From: Pseudomonadota bacterium
Lineage (GTDB): Bacteria; Pseudomonadota; Gammaproteobacteria; Acidiferrobacterales; Acidiferrobacteraceae
Reading direction: 5' to 3'
Assembly: GCA_021827145.1 (NCBI GenBank)
Contig: JAKAXK010000008.1
Span: 1 to 45,148, forward strand
DNA length: 45,148 nucleotides
Shown here: one piece after another, positions 30,325-33,747 of the stretch
Numbering within the stretch: position 1 is the stretch's first letter
Layout of the letters: each line of letters opens with the position of its first letter
Made by a program: the position numbers and the translations under genes
The notes under the pieces: model-generated
What the model saw: the letters and a program-made list of their open reading frames with translations, nothing else
What the model was told of the DNA's origin: nothing
The model's database searches: none

Positions 30325-31101
30325 CTATTCGCCGAGATTCAGCAGGCGCCCATGGACGCGGGCGTCGCGGAAGGTGCGCAGGAAAATACCGAGACCCAAG
30401 GCCAGATACACGACGTTGAGTCCCGCCGCTTCCCAGAGCGACCGCGCCAAGACCACGTGATGAAAGAGGAATCCGCGCATCGCCGCGAAGACATAGCTTG
30501 CAGGCAGGGCGTGGGCCACGATCTGCAGGGGGTGCGGAAGGACCGAGATCGGGTAATAGATACCGCTCAAAGGGGCGATCGCGAAGATCGCGGCCCACGC
30601 CAGATTCTCGGCCCCGAGGCCGTAGCGCAGCACGAGACCGGCCACCACAAGCCCGATCGCCCAACCCATGACGATCAGATTCATGAAGAGCGCGACCAGC
30701 ACCAAGCCCATCTGCCAGATCGGAAAGTGGTAGAACCAATAGGCGAAGAGCGCCGCCATGCCGCTGCCGATAAGGGTACGCAAGAGGCTTATGATGAACA
30801 GCGCGCCCGCGAGTTCGTGGGCACGCAAGGGGCTTGCGAACAGGTGGCCCAGGTTGCGCGAATAGAGCTCCTCGAAGAATACGACCGAGACCCCAAGCTG
30901 ACCGCGGAACATGACATCCCACAATAGCGCCGCGGCCAGAAGCACGCCCGAGGCCTGCGCCAGATAGCTGCTATGGTGCACGAGATACTCGCTCAGAAAA
31001 CCCCAGAGGATGATCTGCATGGTCGGCCAATACGCGAGCTCGATGATCCGCGGCCACGACCCCTTCAGGAGATAGACATAGCGCTCGATCATGGCGCCCA
31101 T
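30325..31101 (-). CDS. ABC-2 type exporter permease, separated from its ATPase by an IscB element
   Basis: The product is 258 aa from the ATG at 31101, which has GAGG five bases upstream; an ATG at 31134 would add 11 residues. Six membrane segments are seen, with the ABC-2 features ELAYWPTMQIILWGFLSEYL, FFEELYSRNLGHLFASPLRAHELAGALF and APLSGIYYPISVLPHPLQIVAHALPASYVFAAMRG. The matching ATPase gene lies at 32992, on the same strand but about 1.9 kb away because the IscB element sits between. The iscB stop overlaps the upstream ATG (31134), so expression may now depend on transcription through the element. Confidence 0.87.
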   Translation of the reverse strand: MGAMIERYVYLLKGSWPRIIELAYWPTMQIILWGFLSEYLVHHSSYLAQASGVLLAAALLWDVMFRGQLGVSVVFFEELYSRNLGHLFASPLRAHELAGALFIISLLRTLIGSGMAALFAYWFYHFPIWQMGLVLVALFMNLIVMGWAIGLVVAGLVLRYGLGAENLAWAAIFAIAPLSGIYYPISVLPHPLQIVAHALPASYVFAAMRGFLFHHVVLARSLWEAAGLNVVYLALGLGIFLRTFRDARVHGRLLNLGE

Positions 31102-31130
31102 GCGCCTCAGACTTCCACTGCGCGTCTCCG

Positions 31131-32588
31131 TCATCCAGTGGTGCGGGAAACCCCGGCGTCATTGTGGGCCGTACATTGTAGGCCGGATGGCCTACGGCCC
31201 ATCAGGCCGGGGAGGGAGAGCGCGGCGGCGTAAGCCGCCCCTGTTCCCGCATCTCCTTTGTCAAAGGCTCTCTTCGTGAGGGAATATCCATAGCCGTCCG
31301 CCCTCTGGATCAAGGTGCAGAATCGGTGATGGATGCCTTGTACCAGTCCTGGTGCGGTCTGGATGTTGAAACGCCCACTGGCGCGGATGGCGACGCGGCC
31401 CAGATAGGTGCCCACTTTTTTGCCTGTAGTCACCACGACCCGGACCAGATCCCCGGTCTGAAACCCAAAGGCGCTTTTGCTACGAGTGAGATACCCGCGG
31501 GGGAAGCCGTGTTTGGTGAGACGCGTGCGCTGGTAGCTGCCACGACCCGTGGCCTTGATGGCGAGGACGGGTTGTTGCCAGCGTTCTACGGCATCGACGT
31601 GGCCTGTGCAGAGGGCATCCAGGCAGTGTTCTTTCGGGACGTTCAGCCGGTGCCGATTCCACTTCGTCCGGCCGCCGCTGGCGACCTCGACCTCGAGGCC
31701 CATCGCCTTTAACTGCTGGTGCAACGCCCACCGGGTGCTGTTCACCGCCGCCGCGTCGCGCAACGGGGCCTTGCGCTGCGATTCGATGTGCGCCAGACGC
31801 TGGGGGTCGTGGGCCAGAAACACGGCCACATCCTGATGGGCCTTGGCCTGGTTGCAGTTGTGACAGGCGATGGTGAGGTTGCTCACCCGACCGGAGCCGC
31901 CTCGGGACTTGGGTTGAATGTGGTCTATTTCCAGGGGCGTGTTTTCCGCCCCGCAGTAAACGCACGTCCGCCCCCACTTCTCCAGCAGGTACTCGCGGAC
32001 CTCGTACCCGGCCAATGTGCCTTGTTGATACGCAACGCCGGATATTTCCGGGTTTTGCATCTGCTGGGTATCGAACCGGACCAGCTCCTGCGACAGGGAT
32101 GTCACCGGCGCCAATCGGCGGAGCCGTGCCACCCACGCTATCGTCGTATCGACCCGATGGCGCAGGCTGGGCGCCAGCCAACCCTCCGGTTTCGTCCGGT
32201 TGTCGAAGCGGGCCGGACGATACCGCAAGTTCCCGCGGCGGCGCTGGCGGAACGCGCGCCGGGCCGTGAGCCGGTCGCGGATCACGGAACCACGGTGTTG
32301 CAATGCCAGCAGCATCCGCACCGTGAGGGTGCGGACGACTTCTCCCGTCGTCGTATCCGCGGTATCTGACTCCCGCACCAAGGCGAGCCCCGTGGTCTGG
32401 CTGCCCGGATCGAGCTTTAACCGGACCGGTTGCAGCACGGAATTCTCTCGCAACCTATCCACCAACCGGATGGCGAACGGCATCATCCGGTGCACGCGCG
32501 CCCGGCCCCGCGCGAGCAGGAGCCGTGCCCGCCTCTCCGAGCACGGCATCAAGGGTCTCTTTCTTTTGTCCAACACAAAAACGGCCAT
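31131..32588 (-). CDS. iscB: IscB RNA-guided nuclease (OMEGA system)
   Basis: The product is 485 aa. IscB is the ancestor of Cas9 carried by IS200/IS605-type elements. It uses an omega RNA to cut DNA. Domains in order: PLMP domain at 11-40 (RPLMPCSERRARLLLARGRA); RuvC-I with Asp60 in KLDPGSQTTGL; Arg-rich bridge helix at about 106-130; RuvC-II with Glu168 in SQELVRFD; HNH with CVYCG, LEIDHIQPKSRGG (Asp222, His223) and CHNCNQAK; RuvC-III with Asp324 in HCLDALCTGH; then the C-terminal target-motif-interacting region. All catalytic residues are intact. AAGAGAG stands before the ATG. No TnpA transposase is nearby, so the element needs help in trans. The last 25 residues look like read-through of the element end. 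Confidence 0.93.
   Translation of the reverse strand: MAVFVLDKRKRPLMPCSERRARLLLARGRARVHRMMPFAIRLVDRLRENSVLQPVRLKLDPGSQTTGLALVRESDTADTTTGEVVRTLTVRMLLALQHRGSVIRDRLTARRAFRQRRRGNLRYRPARFDNRTKPEGWLAPSLRHRVDTTIAWVARLRRLAPVTSLSQELVRFDTQQMQNPEISGVAYQQGTLAGYEVREYLLEKWGRTCVYCGAENTPLEIDHIQPKSRGGSGRVSNLTIACHNCNQAKAHQDVAVFLAHDPQRLAHIESQRKAPLRDAAAVNSTRWALHQQLKAMGLEVEVASGGRTKWNRHRLNVPKEHCLDALCTGHVDAVERWQQPVLAIKATGRGSYQRTRLTKHGFPRGYLTRSKSAFGFQTGDLVRVVVTTGKKVGTYLGRVAIRASGRFNIQTAPGLVQGIHHRFCTLIQRADGYGYSLTKRAFDKGDAGTGAAYAAALSLPGLMGRRPSGLQCTAHNDAGVSRTTG
31166..31200. repeat. Sub-terminal palindrome of the IscB element
   Basis: GGGCCGTA (31166-31173) pairs with TACGGCCC (31193-31200). An alternative hairpin pairs GTAGGCC (31178-31184) with GGCCTAC (31189-31195) around GGAT. 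Such end hairpins are what single-strand (Y1) transposases recognise. It lies within the last codons of iscB. Confidence 0.6.
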
Positions 32589-32988
32589 AAACGCTCTCTT
32601 AGCAAACAGCCCTTACGGGCCTTGTGACGCGCTCCTTTCGGAGCATCTCCCCTCGGGGTTGTGGGCAACCGGCTCCCTCCTTGCGGAGGCGGCGGGGGCC
32701 TTCGGCGCTTTACCTTTCGCCTTTACCCCCTTTACAGGGGGAGCATAGGCCATGCCCCCACGAAACGGGGGTCGTCCACGGCCTACAATATGATCCCAAC
32801 CTTCCAGTGTCCGGGACTGAGGAAGCATCCCGGAGTGGGTCTGAACGACCCGTTACCCACGTCTGCCGGTTTCCCGGCCCCCTGGTCAACCGAGCCTTTT
32901 GGTGTTCACCTCCAAGCTCCGCCCTCATGGCAGGCCGTACATTGTGGGCCGTGGACAACCCCCGTTTCGTGGGGGCATGGCCCATGGC
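32589..32988 (-). ncRNA. Omega RNA (HEARO-like) region upstream of iscB
   Basis: The roughly 400 bases between the iscB start and the element end contain no supportable gene but many short GC-rich hairpins. Examples are GCCCTTACGGGC, GCTCCTTTCGGAGC, CCCCTCGGGG, CCTCCTTGCGGAGG and CCCCCTTTACAGGGGG. In known IscB systems the omega RNA is encoded just here, read toward iscB, with its guide taken from DNA at or beyond the element end. That end adjoins the last codons of the ABC ATPase gene. The position is a strong argument; the exact fold and limits need covariance analysis. Confidence 0.65.
32748..32982. repeat. 42-bp inverted repeats inside the omega RNA region
   Basis: 32748-32789 and 32941-32982 are inverted copies with 40 of 42 positions identical, 151 bases apart. 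Each arm itself contains a hairpin (CCCCCACGAAACGGGGG in the first arm). They could fold into a long stem in the RNA or mark a nested element end. A related sequence lies at 44331-44372. Confidence 0.8.
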
Positions 32989-32991
32989 CTG

Positions 32992-33747
32992 TTAGGGTGG
33001 GGTAGTTGACAGCTGCGACCGCCCGCGTGCCATATCCAAGAACACCTCCTCGAGCGTCTCACGGCCGTACTTGCCGATCAGGTCGGCAGGCGCCCCCCGA
33101 TCGAAGATCCGACCGTGGCGCAACATGATCACCTCGTCACAGAGCCGCTCGACCTCCAGCATATTATGCGAGGCCAGCACCACCCCGGCGCCACTCGCCT
33201 GCTGGTAATCACGCAGATACGTGCGCAGCCGGTCCGCGGTATCCGGGTCGAGCGAGGCCGTGGGCTCGTCCAGAAGCAGGAGTTGCGGGCGATTGATCAG
33301 GGCCTTGGCGAACGACGCGCGCGTCTTTTGTCCCGCCGAAAGCCGGCCGTAAGGGCGGTCCAGCAGACCCTCCAGGTCCAGGTCGCGGGCAAGCTCGCGG
33401 ATGCGGGACGCCGCCTTGCGTACGCCATAGAGGCCGGCGTAGACCCGCAGATTCTGGTGGACGGTCAGGCGATGCGGCAGATCCACATAAGGTGAGGAAA
33501 AGTTGATGCGCGGCAAGACCCGGTAGCGGTGACGCAGGAGATCCTCGCCCAAGACCTGGATCGACCCCGTGGTCGGCAAGAGCAAGCCCATCAACATCGC
33601 AAGCGTGGTCGTCTTGCCGGCGCCGTTGCCCCCCAAAAGCCCGAGCACGCGACCGCTGGCGAGATCGAAGCTCAGGGATGCGACGGCGGTGACTGTCCCG
33701 TAGCGCTTGCTCAAGTCCGTCACCGAGATGGCGGTGGACTCGCTCAA
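32992..33747 (-). CDS. ABC exporter ATP-binding protein
   Basis: The product is 251 aa from TTG at 33747. Walker A is GGNGAGKTTTLAML, the signature LSAGQKTRASFAKAL, Walker B LLLLDEPTASLDPDT, and the His-loop LASHNMLEVERL. It resembles ABC-2 exporter ATPases of the drug or lipid type and is the natural partner of the permease at 30325. The start overlaps the stop of the upstream hypothetical gene by 4 bases. The IscB element begins immediately after its stop codon, so the original downstream link to the permease was cut without destroying either gene. Confidence 0.9.
   Translation of the reverse strand: MSESTAISVTDLSKRYGTVTAVASLSFDLASGRVLGLLGGNGAGKTTTLAMLMGLLLPTTGSIQVLGEDLLRHRYRVLPRINFSSPYVDLPHRLTVHQNLRVYAGLYGVRKAASRIRELARDLDLEGLLDRPYGRLSAGQKTRASFAKALINRPQLLLLDEPTASLDPDTADRLRTYLRDYQQASGAGVVLASHNMLEVERLCDEVIMLRHGRIFDRGAPADLIGKYGRETLEEVFLDMARGRSQLSTTPP

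Follow-up and report, generated by a model that had tools for sequence, protein, structure and literature searches.

The window, a stretch of 45,148 nucleotides from a Pseudomonadota genome (contig JAKAXK010000008.1 of assembly GCA_021827145.1), contains a complete IscB/HEARO mobile element located between the two genes of an ABC exporter (Table 1). On the minus strand, the order is ABC ATPase gene, 1.9-kb element and ABC-2 permease gene, and the two flanking genes are intact Pfam members. An earlier reading made from the DNA letters alone (hereafter the sequence-only reading) had placed an IscB (OMEGA nuclease) element exactly between these genes and had described both as intact. The Pfam matches, the HEARO match and the scarless empty site described below confirm this, although the bounds then given (31160–32988) fell slightly short of the true extent.

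Table 1. The IscB/HEARO element and its flanking genes, in window coordinates.
Feature	Coordinates	Strand	Remarks
Complete IscB/HEARO mobile element, 1876 bp	31135..33010	-	Left end (LE) GTCAAC... to right end (RE) ...CCACTGG; ends kept across copies with unrelated flanks; empty site in relatives
iscB ORF, 485 aa	31131..32588	-	TGA stop supplied by target ATGA
HEARO/omegaRNA (RF02033) with two long loop insertions	32642..33010	-	cmscan 44.2 bits, E 2.6e-7; homologous copies in relatives score better
Predicted 16-nt guide GCGGGCGGTCGCAGCT, from the 3' end of the ATPase gene	33011..33026	-	Position 5' of the omegaRNA (inferred from IscB biology)
Target ATGA: TGA is the iscB stop, ATG the permease start; candidate TAM (NTGA)	31131..31134	-	
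RE terminal hairpin (GCCGGGG...CCCCGGC)	31151..31212	-	Also encodes part of the IscB C-terminal tail
Palindromic repeat in first (LE) HEARO hairpin loop	32941..32986	-	Inverted repeat; absent from most copies
Inverted copy of the LE-loop palindromic repeat, in second HEARO loop	32744..32789	-	Single copies also in L114, L115, L117
ABC ATPase gene	32992..33747	-	Now ends on TAA inside element LE (adds STTPP)
ABC-2 permease gene	30325..31134	-	Start codon inside target ATGA

The predicted protein matches the Pfam families RRXRR (2.8e-67) and HNH (1.7e-11), and its PDB matches, which cover the RuvC/HNH core as far as residue 329, are IscB structures (e.g., TbaIscB and OgeuIscB). Alignment to these structures bears out the claim that all IscB catalytic residues are present (D60, E168, D222-H223 and D324). 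We identified RuvC I–III with the D/E/D residues, HNH and the RRXRR/bridge region, as well as an omegaRNA (HEARO) directly 5' of iscB (RF02033, with a score below the gathering cut-off). Comparison between copies shows that the iscB core is under purifying selection. On these sequence features, it is possible that the window IscB is an active nuclease with RNA-guided, TAM-dependent cleavage.

Both ends of the element are sharp. The left end (GTCAACTACCCCGCCCTAA) and the right end (a hairpin, then GTTTCCCGCGC....GG) recur, with unrelated flanks, in copies from this genome and from congeners. Among 369 genomes of the class, the right-end pattern had five matches and was exact only in the window copy. 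The scarless insertion beside a fixed short target, the end hairpins and the lack of target duplication are of the IS200/IS605 type. The window element shares with known HEARO/IscB (OMEGA) elements of the IS200/IS605 superfamily the RRXRR-RuvC-HNH architecture, the 5' HEARO RNA, the lack of a TnpA and the ATGA at the right end. Besides the intact iscB, the same genome has several copies that are truncated or decayed (G000:C137, C7, C39, C208, C149).

Of 60 relatives, 47 yielded the permease gene, and 13 of the relatives are congeners. All 13 congeners lack the element at this site: nothing separates the ATPase gene from the permease gene, and the stop of the one overlaps the start of the other in an ATGA or a GTGA. 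The window left flank ends with CGGTCGCAGCT and the right flank begins with ATGACGGAG; relatives read, e.g., CGGTCACAGCTATGACGGAG. No base was duplicated or lost when the element inserted, and the ATGA directly 3' of the insertion point is the original ATPase-permease stop/start overlap. The ATPase stop is now a TAA within the left end of the element, five residues past the predicted original end. A second empty site, upstream of serS, is exact in a comparison of G005 with G008 and similar in G002. We conclude that the window element is a recent mobile insertion.

Thus, the search of related genomes that the sequence-only reading had proposed recovered the uninterrupted site, and we found neither the same arrangement in all relatives nor a loss of catalytic residues. 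That reading also had the iscB stop touching an ATG upstream of the permease. The overlap with an ATG stands, but the empty sites show that this ATG is the native start of the permease. Its suggestion that the exporter is now read through the element is supported: the permease is probably transcribed in this way, as a scan of the element revealed no promoter-like site and terminator-like sites no more often than expected by chance.

By its position, the 16-nt segment 5' of the omegaRNA, derived from the 3' end of the ATPase gene, should be the guide. Compared with the empty sites of the congeners, this predicted guide has 1–3 mismatches in 11 of 13 cases and 6–7 in the other two, and the ATGA/GTGA is kept. 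An NTGA TAM has been measured for DtIsrB, a member of the related IsrB group (PMC9581776). The target ATGA fits this motif and is a candidate TAM of the window IscB.

With 44.2 bits, the RF02033 match of the window omegaRNA does not reach the gathering cut-off (83), owing to two long inserts that break it up; most other complete copies score 71–149 bits, compared with 44 for the window copy. The inserts are the same palindromic repeat, which entered two omegaRNA loops in opposite orientations. In the predicted minimum-energy fold, the two complementary 46-nt inserts pair with each other and the core is broken, so that they may misfold or disturb the RNA. The window copy could be an inactive relic that has lacked a working omegaRNA since the repeats entered its loops, and both the low Rfam score and the modelled pairing over 46 nt point in this direction. 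Yet each repeat can alternatively fold locally as a hairpin, the core sequence elements of the RNA stay alignable in the Rfam match, and other elements that are intact (L114, L115 and L117) carry single inserts. We therefore take loss of function at this copy seriously, while giving it somewhat less than an even chance. A repeat similar to the inserts is present on another contig of the same genome (C110), where a Y1 tnpA fragment precedes it by ~90 nt (L129). We considered the repeat arms as a dispersed repeat, and rejected this because only two other loci in the genome closely match them, one beside a Y1 tnpA fragment.

No TnpA was identified in the sequence read around the element, in agreement with the sequence-only reading, and Y1 transposases are encoded elsewhere in the genome. 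HEARO/IscB elements usually have no TnpA next to them (PMC9755519). Among the Y1 TnpA genes screened in this genome and in congeners, none has ends and target identical to those of the iscB element. No partner was assigned; an IS200-like tnpA element resembles the iscB element in its end hairpin but not in its target. Multicopy TnpB elements of the same genus (L203–L208, in G005 and G013) have an end hairpin and the terminal 14 nt (CCCGCGCAAACTGG) in common with the iscB elements, but they abut TTGA rather than ATGA, their tnpB is in the opposite orientation, and no relation to start codons was seen. The common terminal 14 nt suggests mobilisation in trans, with a shared TnpA partner.

The position of the window element relative to the permease is not an isolated case. 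Of 19 element right ends in the genus, 15 are followed directly by an HMM-supported gene whose start codon is the ATG within the target, and the target is ATGA in all copies of the subfamily. The genes docked in this way include the window permease, serS, radA, efp, accA, glnK, pabB, glcD, tolC-like and lipB-like genes, and others; the exceptions are L116, L128, L200 and L197 (in which the start is uncertain). As background, 11 of the 340 ATGAs in the window (3.2%) occur in frame among the first 30 codons of predicted genes. The excess has a binomial p of ~1e-19 with a null of ~3% and ~1e-12 with a null of 10%, where the null counts all window ATGAs and does not allow for the purging of within-gene insertions. 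The serS behind an element in G008 is the only copy of this gene in that genome, and therefore the arrangement must permit serS expression.

More distant IscB/HEARO elements dock likewise. These include elements in MAGs labelled Nitrospirae (at ThiF, trpD-like and RelB genes), in Prochloron (at C5 methylase, antitoxin and PIN genes) and at a gene start in a Vreelandella/Halomonas relative. In annotated plasmid records, the starts at the element end belong to OmpW, prepilin, NERD and ParB (the last in both Deinococcus and Trichormus); docking is clear in about half of the plasmid records examined, and in the rest no start is annotated where the element ends. An IscB element lies between parA and parB, at the parB start codon, in each of two phyla (L241 on Trichormus plasmid C and L237 on a Deinococcus plasmid). 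In Trichormus, too, parA and parB overlap by an ATGA at the empty site, and the left end of the element provides parA with its stop. A scan of IMG/VR returned only weak HNH similarities. The family to which the window element belongs habitually docks just ahead of the start codon of a host gene, with matching orientation. HEARO elements were reportedly described as abutting ATGA or GTGA from the outset, and scarless insertion and guide-directed retention of IscB/HEARO are already known. Our literature searches found no account of start-codon docking combined with a stop taken from the target; as the corpus was limited and lacks most key papers, this is weak evidence that none exists.

In this subfamily, iscB has no stop codon of its own. 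In 7/7 intact copies, the reading frame stays open across the right-end hairpin and is closed by the TGA in the target ATGA, and the target TGA likewise serves as the iscB stop in 3/3 copies from Nitrospirota MAGs. In the Cupriavidus and Polaromonas copies, iscB overlaps the next gene by 1 nt. Many other IscB elements have an iscB that stops 47–147 nt before the target, and therefore any coupling is lineage-specific. The subfamily overlap between iscB and the host gene is -4 (4 nt, ATGA) in sense orientation, the geometry of coupled gene pairs. ATGA is the commonest gene overlap, and termination-reinitiation at such overlaps requires no more than the final 15 nt of the gene upstream (PMC10666635). 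The iscB-permease junction is a canonical case, with the difference from ordinary -4 overlaps that it was made by a mobile element replacing the original upstream gene. The overlap appears suited to translational coupling, in which ribosomes would be handed over from iscB to the host gene.

Several observations bear on whether the reading frame is maintained. The ORFs of the intact subfamily copies have 466, 471, 478 and 485 codons; their tails differ in length by whole codons only, which suggests selection on the iscB reading frame. Protein-level selection on the C-terminal tail was considered and set aside: codon-position values are 0.197/0.160/0.227 for the tail vs 0.177/0.129/0.431 for the core, a weak bias, and the main constraint on the tail is therefore its role as transposon-end DNA. 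No SD-like motif was found in the last 16 nt before the host start in any intact subfamily copy, and several pre-insertion flanks carry an SD that is now cut off ~0.5–1.8 kb upstream by the element. In two elements on Nostoc and Anabaena plasmids (L240 and L243), a strong SD-like GGAGG is located just before the docked start, an alternative route to translation of the host gene. We also identified three internal deletion derivatives (L119, L121 and L122) that have lost most of iscB and in which the right end is still at a host start codon. All three keep the iscB start region; a short ORF in frame with the target TGA remains in L119 and L122, not in L121; this count (2/3) is too small to serve as proof of coupling.

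The explanation that we favour overall, and hold to be likely, is that a TnpA-less IS200/IS605-type IscB/HEARO element docked at a start codon, is nearly harmless there, and hands ribosomes to the host gene. The element inserted scarlessly, immediately 5' of the ATGA in the ATPase-permease overlap, presumably moved in trans by a Y1 TnpA encoded elsewhere in the genome. Its left end gives the upstream gene a new stop, as seen here and for Trichormus parA. With iscB open through the right-end hairpin to the host ATGA, as the anatomy has it, ribosomes that terminate on iscB should reinitiate on the host gene across the 4-nt overlap. Together, these two features would make the insertion almost harmless. 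With the upstream flank as guide and ATGA as TAM, IscB should re-cut the empty site and thereby favour retention of the element, as expected from what is known of the family.

The bias towards start codons may reflect survivorship rather than targeting. In its plainest form, TnpA would insert at any ATGA and within-gene insertions would be purged, and the frame of iscB into the ATGA would be an inherited accident without a translational role. ATGA is indeed the target in all subfamily copies, the IscB tail shows no clear protein-level selection, other lineages fare well with an earlier iscB stop, and one deletion derivative is out of frame. We nevertheless regard this account as rather unlikely. 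Sites at essential genes need translation to be restored, because the native SD is cut off in several cases and no SD is found near the start; moreover, the frame has been kept through several indels, the arrangement is shared by copies from Pseudomonadota and from Nitrospirota MAGs, and no clear within-gene insertion was seen among the copies that we met in an unsystematic look.

A domesticated, host-serving nuclease kept in the exporter operon, as the sequence-only reading had entertained, is very improbable and already largely refuted by the empty sites: despite the intact catalytic residues and the purifying selection on the iscB core between copies, the site is occupied in a single genome and empty in 13/13 congeners, so that there is no orthologous retention at one locus across species, and the copies belong to a patchy, multicopy mobile family with decayed and deleted members that sit behind different, unrelated genes.

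Docking and the borrowed stop go beyond the sequence-only reading, and the resulting architecture is unusual and compatible with translation. What sets the window element apart from known HEARO/IscB elements is the docking at a host start codon, the borrowed stop by which iscB overlaps the host gene, and the two palindromic omegaRNA inserts. More tentatively, and with confidence well below that in the favoured explanation, we suggest that IscB/HEARO elements are start-codon-docking transposons, in which TAM and target coincide with the start codon, the left end is a replacement stop and, in some lineages, translation of iscB drives the host gene, which is often essential. Loss of iscB translation would then starve the host, a means of retention beyond guide-directed re-cutting.

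IscB is the ancestor of Cas9, and it is debated why IscB elements persist when they lack a transposase. If the elements dock at starts systematically and couple iscB to essential host genes, this would explain why insertion is harmless, and host promoters would transcribe iscB and the omegaRNA. It would also add a mechanism of retention, as loss of iscB translation would harm the host, and it would explain the start-codon-like TAM of this group.
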